Virus record (IMG/VR): IMGVR_UViG_3300046535_001514
Coordinates: 1-40,712 of that record
DNA from: a virus
Length of the DNA: 40,712 nt
Direction: 5' to 3' (one strand)
The stretch's first letter is position 1. Each line of letters starts with the position of its first letter. This document shows, piece by piece, positions 5,471 through 14,784 of this stretch. The position numbers were made by a program, and so were the translations under genes. The notes beneath the pieces were generated by a model, which saw nothing but the letters and a program-made list of their open reading frames with translations, was not told where the DNA came from and did not search any database.

Positions 5471-5547
5471 TGGCTCCCCGAACTGGACTCGAACCAGTGA
5501 CCTAGCGATTAACAATCGCGCGCTCTACCGAGCTGAGCTATCAGGGA
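5471..5547 (-). tRNA. tRNA-Asn (anticodon GUU)
   Basis: A full cloverleaf on the minus strand. The acceptor stem pairs TCCCTGA with TCGGGGA. The D arm is AGCTCAGCTCGGTAGAGC. The anticodon arm GCGAT/ATCGC has loop TTGTTAA and anticodon GTT. The T arm is CTGGTTCGAGTCCAG. A discriminator G and an encoded CCA (5473-5471) follow. It closely resembles gammaproteobacterial tRNA-Asn. Its first seven bases overlap the last codon and TGA of the upstream coding gene, so it must be processed out of an mRNA transcript. It is complete, not a truncated attachment-site copy. Confidence 0.95.
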
Positions 5548-5972: not shown

Positions 5973-6752
5973 TTATTCTTTCTTTTTTATGACTTTATCA
6001 ATAATGGCGCAAACTTTTGAATGTGACCCCGGCAACATAACCCAATATGGAAATTCTTTAACATCACAATTTATTTTCGTAATCCTTGCCTCGACATAGA
6101 CCGTATCGCCCACCTTGAATTTTGGTTCTTCAAACGGATTTACATCCACATCAGGGAAAGTGAAGCGCATCTTACCTGAGATACCATCACCACCTCCGCT
6201 TAACCCCCCACTGCAGACTTTGACTTTGAATTCTGGCTCAGGTTTCTTCTCTTCTTCAGGCTTCACAAGCTCAAGACAAGATGTGTCTATGTATTTAGGT
6301 CCGTCACAAAAATCAACCACGATATACGCAGGTAATCCTGATTCTCTGCCGCTCATTACTATCCCTATCCCGAACCTACCTTTAACCCTAACTCTGTCGC
6401 CTGCTTTGAATTTTTGCTCAGGTTTCTTCTCAGACTCTACCTTTTTTAGATCATCTGCATTAAAAGACACGGCAATCAGAGGAAGTTCTGCATTCCAATC
6501 CCATGGCTTGGCTACGATTTCAATGTTATCTTTTTTAACATCAACTATTATCCACATCTGCCCATACTTGTCCTTTACTTTGTCGCGAACTTTGAAATCA
6601 TGCTCGGGTTTTACAAGTTCCAGATTATCTGTTTTTTTCAGAAAAGGCACTCCATATACCGCGCAAAATTCCTCATGAAAACAACATATTACACCTTCTC
6701 TTCCCAGGTATTGACCATATTTTACTCTAACTTTGTCGCCTACTTTGAACAT
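5973..6752 (-). CDS. Multi-domain KOW/SH3-like repeat protein
   Basis: A 259-residue protein built from four beta-barrel modules, each opened by a variant of FKVGDKVRVK: near residues 2 (FKVGDKVRVKYGQ), 53 (FKVRDKVKDKYGQ), 113 (FKAGDRVRVKGRFGIG) and 212 (FKVGDTVYVEARI). Linkers are rich in Lys, Glu and Pro (VKPEEEKKPEPEF). Such barrels commonly bind RNA, ribosomes or RNA polymerase (KOW, NusG-like) or act as adaptors. The start at 6752 is preceded by GGGGAG; a start at 6767 is possible but lies further inside the upstream gene. Exact partner unknown. Confidence 0.7.
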   Translation of the reverse strand: MFKVGDKVRVKYGQYLGREGVICCFHEEFCAVYGVPFLKKTDNLELVKPEHDFKVRDKVKDKYGQMWIIVDVKKDNIEIVAKPWDWNAELPLIAVSFNADDLKKVESEKKPEQKFKAGDRVRVKGRFGIGIVMSGRESGLPAYIVVDFCDGPKYIDTSCLELVKPEEEKKPEPEFKVKVCSGGLSGGGDGISGKMRFTFPDVDVNPFEEPKFKVGDTVYVEARITKINCDVKEFPYWVMLPGSHSKVCAIIDKVIKKKE

Positions 6753-6922
6753 AATTTTGCTCCCCATTGTTTTAATTGATCTGCATCAAACGAAAAATCA
6801 TCCCAATCTCCCTTGATTCTATAATAAGTTTTTTCAGAATCCTTTCCGCTCGTAGGCATACTTTTAACATCTATTCCTTCCATCTCAACGATAATTTTAT
6901 CTCCTACTTTAAATTTAGTCAT
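6740..6922 (-). CDS. Single-module KOW/SH3-like protein
   Basis: A 60-residue protein starting MTKFKVGDKIIVEMEG, the same opening as each module of the larger downstream protein. The start at 6922 is favoured, because four extra N-terminal codons would be only a frame-shifted Lys run from the upstream gene. It ends WGAKLCSK. It overlaps both neighbours by a few bases. Probably a free-standing version of the repeat module. Ligand unknown. Confidence 0.65.
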   Translation of the reverse strand: MTKFKVGDKIIVEMEGIDVKSMPTSGKDSEKTYYRIKGDWDDFSFDADQLKQWGAKLCSK

Positions 6923-7100
6923 TTTCTTCTTCAACCTCTTCTAGTCCAAATTTAGTCCACCACGTTACGCTGCCGTTGCCCATATGAACAGCGTACAGCT
7001 CTGCGGATCCTGGTGTACGTTTATTCTCAATTATACAGGTCACGTAACCATAGCTACCATCGCTTGTTTTTACCTTGTCTTCAATCTCAAATATTGCCAT
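6915..7100 (-). CDS. Single-module KOW/SH3-like protein
   Basis: A 61-residue protein. FEIEDKVKTSDGSYGYVTCI is a typical first hairpin of a KOW/SH3 barrel, followed by YAVHMGNGSVTWW and an acidic tail (LEEVEEEND). The preceding bases include TAGGAG. It is the first intact coding gene of the leftward accessory operon, directly after the rtcB remnant. Function by analogy only: RNA, ribosome or RNA polymerase contact. Confidence 0.68.
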   Translation of the reverse strand: MAIFEIEDKVKTSDGSYGYVTCIIENKRTPGSAELYAVHMGNGSVTWWTKFGLEEVEEEND

Positions 7101-9299: not shown

Positions 9300-9716
9300 G
9301 TGACAACTTTAGGAGGTAAGCCTTTTATACCTTTTAAAGCCGGTATTTATCCATTCAAAGTAGTAAAAGCAGTCTGGGCAGTAAGCAAAGCATCTGGGGA
9401 ACCGATGATAGTGATTACTCTTGAGCTTGTCAGAGACTATCAGACGTACATTGTAACCGACTATATGACTCTTTTGTATATCGAACGGGTCGAGGAATTT
9501 TTTAAAGCAACGGGGAAGAGGGTTGCGTCAAAAATCAGGCATATGCAGCCACACTGGTTTGATGGTACGTCCGGTTTTGTGAGCGCAGGAACTTTGATTT
9601 ACAATCAGAGAGTTAGACCGAAAATTTTAAATTACTTACTACCAAAGGAGAGCAAAAATGTCAAAAGAAGTAAACGAAGCAATAAAAAAGTTAAGGCAAT
9701 TAAATGCCAATATTGA
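9300..9716 (+). CDS. Possible single-stranded-DNA-binding protein (DUF669-like)
   Basis: A 138-residue protein starting with GTG at 9300 behind AAGGGAG. An ATG two bases earlier is followed at once by TGA. The pattern AGIYPFKVVKAVWAVSKASG then EPMIVITLELV and a helix EEFFKATGKRVASK fits the DUF669 type of phage ssDNA-binding-like proteins, normally found with RecT or helicase genes, as here. The C-terminal 23 residues are very basic. They are encoded in a 59-bp overlap with the next gene, and the true protein might end in a shorter form in relatives. Confidence 0.6.
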   Translation: MTTLGGKPFIPFKAGIYPFKVVKAVWAVSKASGEPMIVITLELVRDYQTYIVTDYMTLLYIERVEEFFKATGKRVASKIRHMQPHWFDGTSGFVSAGTLIYNQRVRPKILNYLLPKESKNVKRSKRSNKKVKAIKCQY

Positions 9717-9939
9717 TGCAGGTAAAAAGCGTGCATCAGATTCACTGGCGACTCTTGAAGTGTCAAACCCTGAGCTTAGGAAAGCTATCATTCCCTTATA
9801 TGATCTTCTTTGCCATATAGATCAAATGTATGCTTTTAAAACAGAGATCCTTAACCGCTGTTATGCTAAGTTACACGATACAATCATGGCGGAGGAATGT
9901 GACTGCCATCATTGTACATCAATGAAAGTCAAACACTAG
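9658..9939 (+). CDS. Small helical protein with C-terminal Cys/His motif
   Basis: A 93-residue protein with an excellent ribosome site (AAAGGAG, then ATG at 9658). It is helical throughout (EVNEAIKKLRQLNANIDAGK), ending ECDCHHCTSMKVKH, a CxCHHC cluster that could hold zinc. Placement between the possible ssDNA-binding gene and the RecT-like gene suggests a replication or recombination accessory. No family recognised. Confidence 0.7.
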   Translation: MSKEVNEAIKKLRQLNANIDAGKKRASDSLATLEVSNPELRKAIIPLYDLLCHIDQMYAFKTEILNRCYAKLHDTIMAEECDCHHCTSMKVKH

Positions 9940-9949
9940 GATTATCACT

Positions 9950-10186
9950 ATGGAAAATGACACAAAAATCTGTCGAGAGTTTTATAAAGAAGTCGATATC
10001 AGAAATGCCAGGCATTACAAGCTCGGTGACAAAGTTGATTTGACGGGCATCGTTTGTAGAGAGCCGGATTTACTCTCTGGCAAAATACCTATTCTTATTG
10101 ATGATGTTAATAGCCCATCTGAGTGCGCAATGCCTATTGAGATTCATGTTTTATCAAACCACGTAACTAAAATAAACGGAGATTAA
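9950..10186 (+). CDS. Small beta-rich protein with a LGDKV opening
   Basis: A 78-residue protein starting 10 bp after the previous stop. The core HYKLGDKVDLTGIVCREPDL resembles the first strands of the KOW/SH3-like barrels encoded elsewhere in this phage, though the rest (IPILIDDVNSPSECAMPIEI) also suits an OB-like barrel. It sits directly before the RecT-like gene, with 1 bp between stop and ATG. Unknown function. Confidence 0.7.
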   Translation: MENDTKICREFYKEVDIRNARHYKLGDKVDLTGIVCREPDLLSGKIPILIDDVNSPSECAMPIEIHVLSNHVTKINGD

Positions 10187-10187
10187 A

Positions 10188-11051
10188 ATGGAACAAAAGC
10201 CAAATATACAAGAACTTCAAGCACTTTCTAAATTTTACGTTGATAGCAAGTACTTTAGTGACATAACGACGTCTCAGGTTATCGTTAAAATACTGGCTGG
10301 ACGAGAGTTGGGAATAGACACTTTCAGCAGTGTCCGCGGAATCCATGTGATAAAAGGTAACACTATTTTAAGTGCTTCCATGATCTCACAGCTTGTGGCT
10401 AATAGCCCACGCTATGGCTACAAGGTTTTATACTCTGATGATGTGAAATGTGAAATACAATTTTTTGAAAATAACCAGAAATCCGGTATAGCTTCATTTA
10501 CACTCGAAGAAGCCAAAAGAGCAGAACTTACAAGCAACCCATGCTGGAGGAAATATCCATCAGATATGCTTTTTGCTCGCGCCATGTCGCGGGGTGCTAA
10601 GCGATATGCGGCGGGAATCTTTGGCGCAACTGGTGTATATACTCATGAAGAAATGGGCATGGATGTTGATGAGGATGGTTGTATAATTGATGTTAAGGCC
10701 GATCGAGTCACCAGAAATGAGGCAGGAGCCTTAGTAAATCCTTCTACCCCACTCCTACATGAGCTTGTCATGGACGTAAAGGCATGCGTTGAGGATGCTC
10801 GTCGTAAAGGCGCATGCAGTGACCAGCTAATCCAGCATATCTTCGCAAAGGAAGGCATTGAAGACTGGCCGGAGCTTAAACCCGCTCGGGCGAAGGTTTG
10901 GATAAATTATATACAGGGTCGCGTCAAGAAGTTTGAAGATGAAGAGATGCTCAAAGAAGCCACGAAGAGCATACAGGAAACTAAGGACATCATCGAAGGT
11001 GAATTCGGAAATGTCGAAGTCTTATCAGTTACCCAACAAGAGGGGGTGTAA
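10188..11051 (+). CDS. RecT-like single-strand annealing protein
   Basis: A 287-residue protein. The N-terminal part ELQALSKFYVDSKYFSDITT onward, with ILAGRELGIDTFSSVRGIHV, is the pattern seen in RecT-type phage annealases that begin with a substrate-selection helix. The centre, FTLEEAKRAELTSNPCWRKY then PSDMLFARAMSRGAKRY and GVYTHEEMG, is the best diagnostic block. The C-terminus is acidic and helical, as is usual. Such proteins anneal complementary single strands during recombination-dependent replication. No exonuclease partner (RecE-like) is visible; the VRR-NUC protein could contribute. Confidence 0.68.
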   Translation: MEQKPNIQELQALSKFYVDSKYFSDITTSQVIVKILAGRELGIDTFSSVRGIHVIKGNTILSASMISQLVANSPRYGYKVLYSDDVKCEIQFFENNQKSGIASFTLEEAKRAELTSNPCWRKYPSDMLFARAMSRGAKRYAAGIFGATGVYTHEEMGMDVDEDGCIIDVKADRVTRNEAGALVNPSTPLLHELVMDVKACVEDARRKGACSDQLIQHIFAKEGIEDWPELKPARAKVWINYIQGRVKKFEDEEMLKEATKSIQETKDIIEGEFGNVEVLSVTQQEGV

Positions 11052-11052
11052 A

Positions 11053-11256
11053 ATGTCTAAAGTAGTAGATTACATAAATTGCGGACTTTCGCCGCTGTGG
11101 GCTGAGCCGTACGAACCTCACCCGCGGGAAGACTGGTTTTTAAATCAAGTGGAGGAGGAATACCGTCAACGTAAGGGGATGGTGATAGAGTCTCTGGGAG
11201 ATGTACTGGCAATACGTCTTCTATCCAACCGTGATCAAAAGTCTAAGCAGGTTTAG
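11053..11256 (+). CDS. Hypothetical 67-residue protein
   Basis: Starts at 11053 after AAGAGGGGGTGTAAA. A longer frame open upstream is just a shadow inside the recombinase gene. Sequence: MSKVVDYINCGLSPLWAEPY, then a helix with EEEYRQRKG and a basic end. It may be a small DNA-processing accessory, based only on co-transcription with the RecT-like gene. No motif recognised. Confidence 0.65.
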   Translation: MSKVVDYINCGLSPLWAEPYEPHPREDWFLNQVEEEYRQRKGMVIESLGDVLAIRLLSNRDQKSKQV

Positions 11257-11284
11257 AATGAAAACTAATCAAAGGAGTGATTTG

Positions 11285-11473
11285 ATGGAAAAGCAGGAGT
11301 TAATGAAGTTTGACCCAGATGTTTTGGTCTCTGAATTTCTGAATGGCGAAGGTCGAAATAAGATTCTCCGCTTGGATAGAATAGAGACACTTTATAAGGC
11401 TAACCCGAGTGATTTGGAATTTAAACGATTCTATAATTCGGTTAGAAAATCTTTTAAACTAAACGAGGTATGA
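11285..11473 (+). CDS. Hypothetical helical protein
   Basis: A 62-residue protein with its start at 11285, chosen because AAAGGAGTGATTTG precedes it. In-frame ATGs at 11201 and 11258 lie in or beside the previous gene with poorer sites. Charged and helical: FLNGEGRNKILRLDRIETLY then FKRFYNSVRKSFKL. The next gene starts 1 bp after its stop. Unknown function. Confidence 0.62.
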   Translation: MEKQELMKFDPDVLVSEFLNGEGRNKILRLDRIETLYKANPSDLEFKRFYNSVRKSFKLNEV

Positions 11474-11474
11474 T

Positions 11475-11753
11475 ATGGAAATTTTTGATGCAAACCGTAA
11501 CTTAGTGTCTCCCGAAATTGAGGTTCCCTTTATGCTGAAGGGTTTAACAACAATCTTTGGGAAAGAATCAATAGTAGGTGTTTTAAAGAAGTCCTTCCAT
11601 ATCGACAAAATAGAAGACTTTGAGAAACATCCATTGCTCTTCTTGTCTCTGTCCCAGTTCTATCGAAATGAAGTTGATTATATGGCTAAACTCAAAAAGC
11701 GTAAATCAGTTAAGCCCTATTCCATCGCACAACACAGGAAAACAGTATGCTAA
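11475..11753 (+). CDS. Hypothetical 92-residue protein
   Basis: Preceded by ACGAGGTATGAT. Mixed alpha/beta with a middle region GLTTIFGKESIVGVLKKSFH and a basic C-terminus (KLKKRKSVKPYSIAQHRKTV). It overlaps the csrA start by seven bases, so translation of the two is probably coupled. No domain identified. Confidence 0.65.
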   Translation: MEIFDANRNLVSPEIEVPFMLKGLTTIFGKESIVGVLKKSFHIDKIEDFEKHPLLFLSLSQFYRNEVDYMAKLKKRKSVKPYSIAQHRKTVC

Positions 11754-11935
11754 TACTAAAGAGGATGAATGGTCAATCGATTAAGATTGGTGAGTTCATT
11801 AATGTCAAGGTTTTATCAGTAGACATTAACGAGCAGGGATTTACAGAAGTGACTATCGGGGTAACTGCTCCGAAAGAAGTCACAATACTTCTGGATGATA
11901 TTAAAAAAAGGAGTACTAAAAATGGCAAAAAATAA
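11747..11935 (+). CDS. csrA: CsrA-family RNA-binding translational regulator
   Basis: A 62-residue protein, the length of bacterial CsrA. The signature MLILKRMNGQSIKIGEFINV, the strand VTIGVTAPKEVTIL and the helix DDIKKR follow CsrA from end to end. A short insert (DINEQGF) sits between strands 2 and 3. CsrA dimers bind GGA motifs in RNA hairpin loops and block or stabilise mRNAs. L4 and R6 are kept, but the arginine near position 44, central for RNA contact in E. coli CsrA, is Leu here (VTILLDDI in place of VSVHREEI). The phage protein may therefore have changed specificity or act by forming mixed dimers with host CsrA. Confidence 0.92.
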   Translation: MLILKRMNGQSIKIGEFINVKVLSVDINEQGFTEVTIGVTAPKEVTILLDDIKKRSTKNGKK

Positions 11936-12098
11936 CATATTAGTTTTACTGGCATTCTCTATGATAATTTTTTATGGATTATTGATACTGGCTCATTGGC
12001 CTACATCAATACCTATTAAAGTGTTGCTGTATTTTTATGCCTACATGGCAGCGTATGGATTGCTCATGCATTGCATAAAGATCAAACGATTGTATTGA
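11922..12098 (+). CDS. Small two-pass membrane protein
   Basis: A 58-residue protein starting at 11922 behind AAAAGGAG. Residues 5-24 (NILVLLAFSMIIFYGLLILA) and 32-50 form two transmembrane helices, with a basic C-terminus (IKIKRLY). It overlaps the end of csrA. It could be an inner-membrane inhibitor or superinfection-exclusion protein; the sequence does not tell. The next promoter begins at its stop codon. Confidence 0.68.
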   Translation: MAKNNILVLLAFSMIIFYGLLILAHWPTSIPIKVLLYFYAYMAAYGLLMHCIKIKRLY

Positions 12099-12123
12099 CA
12101 TCATGATCGCTGGCGATTACAAT
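12095..12123 (+). promoter_or_regulatory. Rightward promoter with palindrome in the spacer
   Basis: Perfect -35 TTGACA (12095-12100), a 17-bp spacer and -10 TACAAT (12118-12123). The spacer holds the palindrome ATCGCTGGCGAT (12106-12117). It is a near-copy of the leftward promoter at 7558-7530 (23 of 29 positions). The start would lie about 10 bp before the ribosome site of the gene at 12141. It gives the distal half of the cluster, including the RNA ligase, its own control. Confidence 0.82.
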
Positions 12124-12140
12124 CATGATAAGGAGTGGAA

Positions 12141-12353
12141 ATGACAAAATACACAAAGCATACGGTTGGCGATGACGGTTTTACAGAATGGTTTAATCCT
12201 ATGCCCTTATGGAAAGTTAGTTGCTGCGATTGTGGTCTAGTCCATGATATAGAGCTAAAAATAAAGAATAAGAGGATATTAATCCGTGCAAAGAGAAATT
12301 ATCGTGCTACGGGTCAAAAAAGAAGACACATGAACAGGAGAAAAGATGACTGA
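12141..12353 (+). CDS. Small phage protein with CCDCG motif
   Basis: A 70-residue protein starting at the ATG at 12141 after AAGGAG. A GTG two codons earlier is possible. WKVSCCDCGLVHDIELKIKN followed by RAKRNYRATGQKRRHMNRRK matches a small phage protein type seen beside early genes of many phages of proteobacteria. It is basic at the end, perhaps nucleic-acid-binding with a metal site. Biochemical role unknown. Confidence 0.72.
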   Translation: MTKYTKHTVGDDGFTEWFNPMPLWKVSCCDCGLVHDIELKIKNKRILIRAKRNYRATGQKRRHMNRRKDD

Positions 12354-12723
12354 TTTTAAAGTGGGCGACTTAGTAATTGTAGGCGAAAGCTCAGCCGTGG
12401 CTGAAGTTATTAAATGCTCAGAGAAGTGGGTTTTTATTTATTTTGACAACGATCAGGTCGAAAAGTGCCTGAGGATGGAACTATCTTTACTGCCCCCGCA
12501 GCCCTTTAAAAACGGCCAGGTCTTGTGTGTAGATATTAGCCAACGCAAAGGCATTTTGATAGATTATTCACAACCAAGACAATTTCTCGCTAAGTTTGAT
12601 TACATGATAGATAAAAATTATGCGTATCTGACTATAGAAGTTGATGGGGAGCGAATGTACATTTGCGCGCATATTAATGAGTTGTCTGAATGCCTGATCG
12701 ATTTTGAAGAGGAGGCGGCATAA
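12346..12723 (+). CDS. KOW/SH3-like protein
   Basis: A 125-residue protein opening MTDFKVGDLVIVGESSAVAE, the same VGD signature as the leftward family at 5973-7100. A second barrel-like segment starts at PFKNGQVLCVDISQRKGILI. It ends in an acidic tail. It overlaps the gene before by eight bases and the gene after by one. It probably adopts one or two small beta barrels. Partner unknown. Confidence 0.68.
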   Translation: MTDFKVGDLVIVGESSAVAEVIKCSEKWVFIYFDNDQVEKCLRMELSLLPPQPFKNGQVLCVDISQRKGILIDYSQPRQFLAKFDYMIDKNYAYLTIEVDGERMYICAHINELSECLIDFEEEAA

Positions 12724-12965
12724 TGACTATCAAGAAACATGGGGATATTTATCCTATGCAGACAGCCCCTCGAGACGGAACCCCAGTATTTTTACTGTCA
12801 ACTAAAGGGTGGTTTAAGGCTGTATTCCGTGGCGATACCTGGCAACCGATGGACTTCGACGGGTGGGAAATAGATTTTGATAAGGCATCACATTGGAGAC
12901 CAATGCAAACGAGCATGCGTAGAACTAATTTAAATCCAGATTTAAATTTAGAGGAGGCTGAATAA
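12723..12965 (+). CDS. Small HWRP-domain protein (DUF551-like)
   Basis: An 80-residue protein with MQTAPRDGTPVFLLSTKGWF, a Trp-rich centre and HWRPMQT. The frame xxPxDGxxVL...W...HWRPM is that of small phage proteins annotated as DUF551 or similar. It is the first of three such genes within 1.2 kb (with 13311 and 13586). Start and stop overlap its neighbours by one base. These proteins are widespread in phages, but their function is not known. Confidence 0.7.
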   Translation: MTIKKHGDIYPMQTAPRDGTPVFLLSTKGWFKAVFRGDTWQPMDFDGWEIDFDKASHWRPMQTSMRRTNLNPDLNLEEAE

Positions 12966-13318
12966 TGGCTGAACTTTTGCTAAAAAAGTACCATGATTTC
13001 ATAGTCCTTTTGGCTAGTCAAGATCCAGACGAGGTGGATTTTGATGAGATTGTTTGTGAGGCTGAAAAATTCTTAGAGGAGAATCCGATCTATGAACAAA
13101 TAAATAAATTTCATCATTTAGACAAAAATTGGGAGTCTAGTTGGCCTCAATGTAATATCTTTTGCGTTTTTTGTATTGATTGTGATGATGCAGAAAAAGG
13201 TATGCTCAAGCAATCGCCTGATGGATATCGCATATTCACGCACAGTAGGATTATCTCTGTTAGAGAATCTAAAAAGTGTATCATGTGGAGATATTATTTT
13301 GAGGGCGAAGATGAGTAA
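12965..13318 (+). CDS. Hypothetical 117-residue protein
   Basis: An acidic N-terminal helix region (ASQDPDEVDFDEIVCEAEKF) is followed by a Cys/Trp-rich middle (WPQCNIFCVFCIDCDDAEKG) and a beta-rich end (IISVRESKKCIMWRYYFEG). The cysteine cluster could bind a metal. It is embedded between HWRP genes with overlapping start and stop codons. No family recognised. Confidence 0.65.
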   Translation: MAELLLKKYHDFIVLLASQDPDEVDFDEIVCEAEKFLEENPIYEQINKFHHLDKNWESSWPQCNIFCVFCIDCDDAEKGMLKQSPDGYRIFTHSRIISVRESKKCIMWRYYFEGEDE

Positions 13319-13589
13319 CTGGATAAAATTCGACAAGAATGACCTTACCACATGGCCTCCATACAAGGTCAATGTCTTGGCTATTGATGAATACAAAGAC
13401 ATCCAAACCGTAAGCCACGATACGTATGATTTTGATGAAGATGATGAGGATGCCTCGGAGACGGACGACTTTGGAAAAAACGAGCATTTTTTGGCGATGG
13501 CTCACGAGTGTTCATACGATTACACCCACGATGTGACGGACTCGGTAACGCATTGGCGGCCTATGATCGATCTGCCGGAGGATTTATGA
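13311..13589 (+). CDS. HWRP-domain protein (DUF551-like), tandem copy 2
   Basis: A 92-residue protein. The start at 13311 (ATGAGTAA overlap with the previous stop) is chosen because the sequence MSNWIKFDKNDLTTWPPYKV matches the start of the next gene (MSKWIKFD then EKTWPEF). It has a very acidic insert in the middle (DFDEDDEDASETDDFG) and ends THWRPMIDLPEDL. Probably a tandem paralogue pair. Confidence 0.7.
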   Translation: MSNWIKFDKNDLTTWPPYKVNVLAIDEYKDIQTVSHDTYDFDEDDEDASETDDFGKNEHFLAMAHECSYDYTHDVTDSVTHWRPMIDLPEDL

Positions 13590-13939
13590 GCAAGTGGATT
13601 AAATTTGATGTGTTCGACGAAAAAACATGGCCAGAGTTTGAGGAAGAGATTTTACTGGTTATGAATATCAGTAATCATTCTTATGTAACTATTGGCAGAA
13701 TAGTTGATTGTCGTGGTATAGACGAAGGTTTGGCAGTCTATGCGGATGGCTGTAGTGATGGTATTAAATGTGTCACACACTGGCGGCCAATTCCTGATCC
13801 TCCTACTATGAAACCCAAAGTATGCCCCGCATGCGGTAACCCGCCGAAGCCGTTCGAGACAGACTCGATCGACAAAGATCCATACAAGACCTGCGCCATG
13901 TGCGGGGAAATGACAGCTGACCAACAGGATTTAGCATAA
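13586..13939 (+). CDS. HWRP-domain protein with C-terminal zinc ribbon, tandem copy 3
   Basis: A 117-residue protein starting at 13586 behind GGAGG, with an ATGA overlap. An N-terminal DUF551-like unit runs from MSKWIKFDVFDEKTWPEFEE to THWRPIPDPP. It is then fused to a zinc ribbon made of CPACGNPPK and CAMCGE (CxxC...CxxC). Its two neighbours lack this extension, so this looks like a domain fusion. Function unknown. Confidence 0.7.
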   Translation: MSKWIKFDVFDEKTWPEFEEEILLVMNISNHSYVTIGRIVDCRGIDEGLAVYADGCSDGIKCVTHWRPIPDPPTMKPKVCPACGNPPKPFETDSIDKDPYKTCAMCGEMTADQQDLA

Positions 13940-14784
13940 TGCCCGAATTTAAGAAATTTCCGAAAATTGAAAGATACGACGTCGTTGAATTCACTATTAC
14001 TCAAAAATTGCATGGGTCTAATGCTCAAGTCTATATTTTTGAAACAGAGAATGGACTAGATTTGTTGTGCGGCAGTAGATCAAGATGGATTACGCCCGAG
14101 GATGACAACTTCGGATTCGCTAAATTTGTGCAAAACAATAAACAAGATTTCATGGATACTCTTGGAATTGGTAGGCATTACGGGGAATGGGTGGGCAAAG
14201 GAATAAACACAGGAGAAGGACTTATCGATAAACAATTCTTCTTGTTCAATTGGAAGAGATGGGTGTTTATTCCTTTGCCAGAAAATGTTCGCCGTATCCC
14301 ACTGATAAGCCATGGTCATACATTTCTATATGAGCTGGATGGTAGGATAGAATGTGCAATGGAAGATCTTAAAGAATCAGGTAGCAAAATTTGCCCTGGT
14401 TATATGAAGCCAGAGGGCATCGTAATAGAAATAAATGGGGTATTTTACAAGAAGACTTTCGAAAATGAGGAAGTCGCCTGGAAGTGCAAAGAAAAATCAG
14501 ACAATCCTTTCATTGGGCAAGTAGATGTTTCGCACTTATTGCAACCGCTTCGATTGGAAAAATTACTCTCTCGAGATGAAAAGTATGTAAGGGATTATCC
14601 GCGCAGTCTGCCTATAATCTGCGCAGATTATGTCAATGACCTTGAAGAAGAAGGACAATTTTTCGAGAACGATGAAGAGCAGATTAAGGCAATTAAACGG
14701 GCATTAGGCAGGAAATTATTTTCTTTCGTTAAAGCCACGGTTACTTCTTCGGCTCAACCGGCTGATCTATCGAAAAAAGATTAG
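13939..14784 (+). CDS. RNA ligase (Rnl2-type nucleotidyltransferase)
   Basis: A 281-residue protein with the ordered motifs of covalent nucleotidyl transferases. Motif I is KLHG at 23-26, where K23 is the expected adenylated lysine (TQKLHGSNAQVYI). Motif III/IIIa regions are GEWVGKG (82-88) and FFLFNW (100-105), motif IV is PEGIVIEI (158-165), and motif V is WKCKEK (181-186). Spacing fits the T4 Rnl2-like RNA ligases, which seal nicks in duplex or tRNA-like RNA. Likely role: repair of RNAs cut by host anticodon nucleases. Its last 44 bp overlap the convergent holin-like gene. Confidence 0.85.
   Translation: MPEFKKFPKIERYDVVEFTITQKLHGSNAQVYIFETENGLDLLCGSRSRWITPEDDNFGFAKFVQNNKQDFMDTLGIGRHYGEWVGKGINTGEGLIDKQFFLFNWKRWVFIPLPENVRRIPLISHGHTFLYELDGRIECAMEDLKESGSKICPGYMKPEGIVIEINGVFYKKTFENEEVAWKCKEKSDNPFIGQVDVSHLLQPLRLEKLLSRDEKYVRDYPRSLPIICADYVNDLEEEGQFFENDEEQIKAIKRALGRKLFSFVKATVTSSAQPADLSKKD

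Follow-up and report, generated by a model that had tools for sequence, protein, structure and literature searches.

What could a CsrA copy do for a phage if it has kept the fold of the family but lost the side chains that grip RNA? Copies of CsrA on mobile elements are common. In 2020, csrA was found in 30 of 2517 phages (PMC7366521), and the csrA of JC1 is considered to be a moron gene whose product is possibly associated with the virion (PMC9144972). A copy of the kind described here may interfere with host CsrA rather than serve as a second copy, and it gives a way to separate two explanations. If such a protein is active although it binds no RNA, then contacts with proteins or the formation of mixed dimers suffice to rewire the host. 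It would also provide laboratory strains with a natural CsrA inhibitor that is small and genetically simple to test.

The phage and its csrA-like gene

The window (the whole stretch of DNA that was analysed, IMG/VR record IMGVR_UViG_3300046535_001514) is a virus sequence of 40,712 bases, obtained from metagenomic DNA only and classed as linear, a class that often corresponds to a fragment. The phage is divergent and podovirus-like. The record encodes a P22-type portal, a large terminase, a major head protein, a scaffold and a head closure protein, together with an endolysin and excisionase-like genes, which bears out the statement of an earlier note on this DNA that the gene is phage-encoded. 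Among named phages, no megablast match to the record and no close relative were found.

The csrA-like frame lies exactly where the earlier note placed it, on the + strand, from an ATG at 11747 to a stop which ends at 11935. Its translation, MLILKRMNGQSIKIGEFINVKVLSVDINEQGFTEVTIGVTAPKEVTILLDDIKKRSTKNGKK, is a protein of 62 residues with a leucine at the position of E. coli Arg44, assigned to the CsrA family from Pfam, PHROG, AlphaFold2 and PDB matches. It matches Pfam PF02599 (CsrA) with 45.7 bits (cutoff 27, E=6e-12) and PHROG 9500, "CsrA-like regulator" (E=2e-10), and it scores below the NCBIfam CsrA equivalog cutoffs (42.9 vs 70.1 bits for TIGR00202, 41.3 vs 73 for NF002469). The protein is a member of the CsrA superfamily that fails the canonical CsrA equivalog test. 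A match to an integrin in the PDB sequence search was taken as chance.

The gene belongs to a compact early phage operon, a rightward gene run from about 9300 to 14784 which includes a RecT-like single-stranded DNA annealing protein (10188-11051, +; PHROG 561, E=5e-8) and an RNA ligase. Just upstream, the stop of a 92-residue ORF (11475-11753, +) overlaps the csrA start by 7 bases, so that the translation of the two is probably coupled. This ORF has no Pfam or PHROG match, and its single-sequence model is helical and of low confidence. On the 3' side, a small membrane-like ORF (11922-12098, +) probably starts within the end of csrA; the ORF list also allows for a start further upstream, at 11895, and Pfam and PHROG gave no family match. 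A Shine-Dalgarno-like AGGA precedes the open csrA-like frame and, since the gene overlaps its neighbours at both ends, it is probably translated together with the rest of the operon.

The RNA ligase (13939-14784, +; Pfam PF09414, E=1e-8; PHROG 548, E=3e-26) closes the operon. It is distantly Rnl2-like and suggests RNA repair or takeover functions.

Elsewhere in the window, on the - strand, a PLD-like nuclease (PF13091, 4384-4911) with an apparent signal peptide is an odd cargo for a phage, a tRNA-Asn (GTT) gene (5471-5547) which overlaps the end of an excisionase-like HTH ORF is a possible attachment site or phage tRNA, and several small proteins (5973-7100) carry repeated FKVGDKV or KOW-like motifs.

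Predicted structure and insertion

The AlphaFold2 monomer model, built with 46 viral and bacterial relatives, has a mean pLDDT of 88.6. It predicts the full-length CsrA fold announced by the earlier note, with its strands and C-terminal helix, and it overlays solved structures of the family: Z is 8.3 and the rmsd 1.1 Å over 55 residues with 2bti (RsmA/CsrA), and 7.7 and 1.0 Å over 53 residues with 2jpp (RsmE) (Foldseek, VIA-align). Strands E18-27 and E33-40 form a long β2-β3 hairpin, without a helix in the insert.

The short insert reported before the third strand is also present: it consists of five residues between β2 and β3, within residues 27-33 or so (INEQGFT, 11825-11845, +), the edges of the region being alignment-dependent. 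Fourteen residues of the phage protein span E. coli positions 23-33, against nine in nearly all other sequences, and the loop is the longest in the set, in which others reach 12-13. The insert alone is nevertheless unremarkable, because other phage CsrAs with an intact Arg44 have three to four additional residues at the same site and RsmN has about 16.

The structural alignments end at model residue 58 and chain residue 53 for 2jpp, and at 60 and 55 for 2bti. This offset of +5 equals the length of the insert; therefore, L49 stands at the position of R44.

Loss of RNA-contact residues

The replacement of Arg44 by leucine, the central claim of the earlier note, holds in both kinds of alignment: VSVHREEI of E. 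coli CsrA aligns opposite VTILLDDI, and the structural alignment agrees. Leu48 and Leu49, encoded by CTT (11888-11890, +) and CTG (11891-11893, +), stand for His43 and Arg44. No other basic residue takes the place of Arg44 in the structural alignment, and residues 48-51 (LLDD) include none.

The extent of the change had been understated, however: the loss of R44 stands, but the substitutions R7 to M (M7), Q29 to E, R31 to T (T36) and T5 to K had been overlooked. R6, K38 and R50 are kept, as are the equivalents of L2, L4, V40 and I42, and three lysines are gained (K5, K53, K54). The net charge is +4, compared to +1 in E. coli CsrA, a value found only in the most basic tenth of the 122 viral CsrAs compared. 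The hydrophobic core is preserved, and the residues of the fold and dimer interface are retained (L2, L4, R6, A36, P37 and the acid of position 46, as D51), including the R6-acid46 pair of the inter-subunit salt bridge.

The csrA region of this phage is present in one assembly only. A single sequencing error is not sufficient to account for the change, because the His and Arg codons must each have changed by at least one base to give Leu-Leu. Searched with a CsrA pattern that demands a non-Arg codon at position 44, the window gives one match and 100 shuffles give none; chance therefore does not explain the match.

Rarity among viral and cellular CsrAs

In a viral scan whose patterns leave out position 44, Arg44 is kept in all 80 CsrA loci. 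The scan of viral contigs for a CsrA pattern with an ATGCTN start and a non-Arg codon at 44 found none, while the same pattern with Arg at 44 gives at least 120 matches. With an ATGTTR start, a single Arg44-less viral lineage appears, which has His44. Since these patterns depend on conservation of the core, Arg44-less proteins of greater divergence may have escaped them.

The His44 protein (IDHPKKIV) is a phage CsrA with an altered C-terminus, carried by two contigs (L267:1270-1488, +, and L268), and its gene sits where these otherwise different contigs cease to be identical. Their use as two lineages in a selection test was abandoned: they are identical over 1458 bases and thus make one lineage.

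Among about 85,000 species, with one genome each, the non-Arg44 pattern gave 19 matches, five of which are CsrA-like: a Gln44 protein in Bythopirellula, a Leu44 protein in each of two MAGs (one of Planctomyces, one of Tatlockia), and a pair of near-identical, apparently truncated Pseudomonas copies. The genomes which contain them have 2 to 13 CsrA-family matches each. The Tatlockia MAG has near-duplicate paralogues, one with Leu44 (VHLDEV, L225:304-492, -) and one with Arg44 (VHRDEV, L253).

The RNA contacts were also compared as a set taken from the literature (T5, Q29, R31 and R44, PMC4005645; R50, PMC3791407; R7, PMC6692469). At these side chains, the phage protein deviates more than all 122 non-redundant viral CsrAs, with a contact set chosen when the sequence was already known and a reference set that was partly selected on R44 and obtained with patterns favouring conserved cores. 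At the fold positions, by comparison, its divergence is equalled or exceeded by 35 to 93 of the 122, according to which positions are counted. The result for the contacts holds when R6, K38, H43 and E46 are added, and in a set of 30 sequences not selected on R44; when R44 is left out, the protein is still first or second. It has no basic residue at any of positions 7, 31 and 44, a combination seen in 0 of the 122. No phage CsrA lacking Arg44 plus other basic contacts was found in the papers searched. Phage csrA genes were already known; a variant without Arg44 and other basic contacts is the unusual part.

Relatives and origin

The nearest sequences are CsrAs from plasmids of Piscirickettsia salmonis and from a related viral contig (47-54% identity, tblastn and alignment). 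These plasmid or phage-like proteins (for example NZ_CP039224 and L021) share with the phage protein a DDIKN or DDVKKR ending and the KVLSV core, but they keep the arginine (IHRDDI, IQRDDV) and have no insert. On this comparison, Leu49 and the insertion are most simply taken to have arisen within the phage's own lineage.

The viral contigs searched contained no close relative of the protein. The only contig from the same phage (L008) covers the portal region and not csrA. Searching for relatives with the RecT-like protein gave one distant match and with the RNA ligase none, and the portal has only distant relatives in plasmids, from E. coli. The order to which the Tatlockia MAG belongs gave no match in 143 genomes, a result that is uninformative about the host. 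In a local search, the only neighbouring genes in common with other csrA loci are an endolysin, a VRR-NUC protein and a weak RecT match.

Possible functions

The earlier note offered three options: binding of different RNAs, mixed dimers with host CsrA, or binding of proteins. Published mutants of the arginine indicate what its loss may cause. In RsmN, R62A (the equivalent of R44) keeps the structure and binds RsmZ-2 more than 1000-fold more weakly, although an rsmA mutant still regained swarming with it (PMC3791407). In E. coli and C. jejuni, R44A ranks with the mutations that impair RNA binding most (PMC6692469). It also reduces binding by RsmQ, a plasmid protein for which two-hybrid tests show heterodimers with RsmA and RsmE of the host (PMC9928087).

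The best reading is that the phage protein is a structurally sound CsrA whose canonical ANGGA binding would be strongly weakened. The fold and the interface are kept while RNA contacts are lost, hence the proposal, to which we give a probability of about 40%, that it acts through mixed dimers with host CsrA. A real CsrA-fold protein would be made from the early operon and, judging from the mutants above, would bind canonical RNA much more weakly than CsrA does. It could still form the swapped dimer and hence pair with host CsrA; the mixed dimers would have impaired RNA-binding faces, and Csr control of the host would be lowered or shifted during infection. The stronger version, a phage "anti-CsrA" in which a dimerising, RNA-blind copy poisons CsrA, a global post-transcriptional regulator of the host, through mixed dimers, is more doubtful; host takeover by such a copy is not documented in the papers searched.

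A close rival, nearly as likely as mixed dimers, is that the protein still regulates by binding RNA, its specificity being altered or relaxed, and acts on a few transcripts of the phage or the host. Because contacts of the backbone provide most of the GGA specificity in the CsrA family (PMC3791407, PMC6692469), RNA binding may persist in part. The backbone contacts to GG would persist, the equivalents of L2, L4, V40, I42, K38 and R50 are conserved, and altered binding is possible since the protein is basic, with K5, K53, K54 and the C-terminal tail as candidate replacements for the lost arginines. The RecT-like and RNA ligase genes of the operon also fit a role with RNA. On the other hand, the loss of this one arginine has a large effect in RsmN (PMC3791407), and here R31, R7 and Q29 are lost too; moreover, the RNA upstream of the gene shows no fold signal and no notable ANGGA hairpin (fold z-score 0.17).

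The gene is unlikely to be a decaying or drifting remnant without function, as might be thought of a single sequence with no relative to reveal selection, when Arg44-less CsrAs elsewhere are rare and found in genomes which also carry intact copies. Indeed, the frame is intact, the 15-base insertion is in frame and the operon overlap exists on both sides; the core is no less conserved than that of other viral CsrAs, the deviation being confined to contact side chains, and the adjacent H to L and R to L changes need separate base changes. Less probable still is a reuse of the RNA face for binding a protein (a partner of host CsrA, a chaperone or a phage protein), by analogy with FliW and CesT. 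The RNA edge has gained in hydrophobicity (I47-L48-L49), CesT (5z38) and FliW (5dmb) are known to bind CsrA, the CsrA chains of both structures match the model, and the 92-residue ORF overlapping the csrA start is a candidate partner. However, this ORF has neither a family match nor a good model, and no FliW- or CesT-like gene was found among the proteins scanned in the window, which is probably a fragment.

Comparison with known CsrA systems

The phage protein has in common with CsrA, RsmA and RsmE (PF02599; E. coli CsrA, P. fluorescens RsmE 2jpp) its length, the MLIL-x-R start, the β topology with a C-terminal helix and the IGV-x-APKEV core, and its model overlays them within 1.0-1.1 Å. It differs from them by Leu for Arg44, Thr for Arg31, Met for Arg7, Glu for Gln29 and Lys for Thr5, and by a hairpin that is five residues longer.

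The CsrAs of Pseudomonas (RsmM type), Vibrio and Bcep22-like phages (PMC7366521, PMC9144972) are likewise phage-carried, and at several of these loci the upstream stop overlaps the csrA start, or nuclease or RecT genes are nearby. All those examined keep Arg44, unlike the protein described here. In Vibrio phages (L002, L005, L241), the stop of the upstream gene overlaps the csrA start as in the window, and in VvAW1 the gene upstream of csrA encodes an exonuclease. Bcep22-like and Pondi-type CsrAs (L243:1980-2174, L242:1989-2189) have divergent N-termini and keep the equivalent of Arg44; that of BcepIL02 has wholly lost MLIL-x-R, and its gene lies between the portal and major head genes.

RsmN/RsmF of P. 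aeruginosa has an insertion at the same β2-β3 site, but there it is a helix of about 16 residues, the dimer topology is non-swapped and the arginine is kept as Arg62 (PMC3791407). Membership of this group was rejected for the phage protein, whose five-residue hairpin insert has no helix and which lacks the arginine.

The other CsrAs without Arg44 (His44 in L267/L268; Gln in L219 and Leu in L220 and L225, all three cellular) have no β2-β3 insert. L267/L268, L220 and L225 keep Arg31 and Arg or Lys at position 7, L219 (Ser31) being the exception, and each cellular one shares its genome with additional members of the CsrA family.

The plasmid-borne RsmQ is also a CsrA homologue on a mobile element and pairs with the Rsm proteins of its host (PMC9928087), but it has R44 and binds GGA, whereas the phage protein has a leucine in its place.
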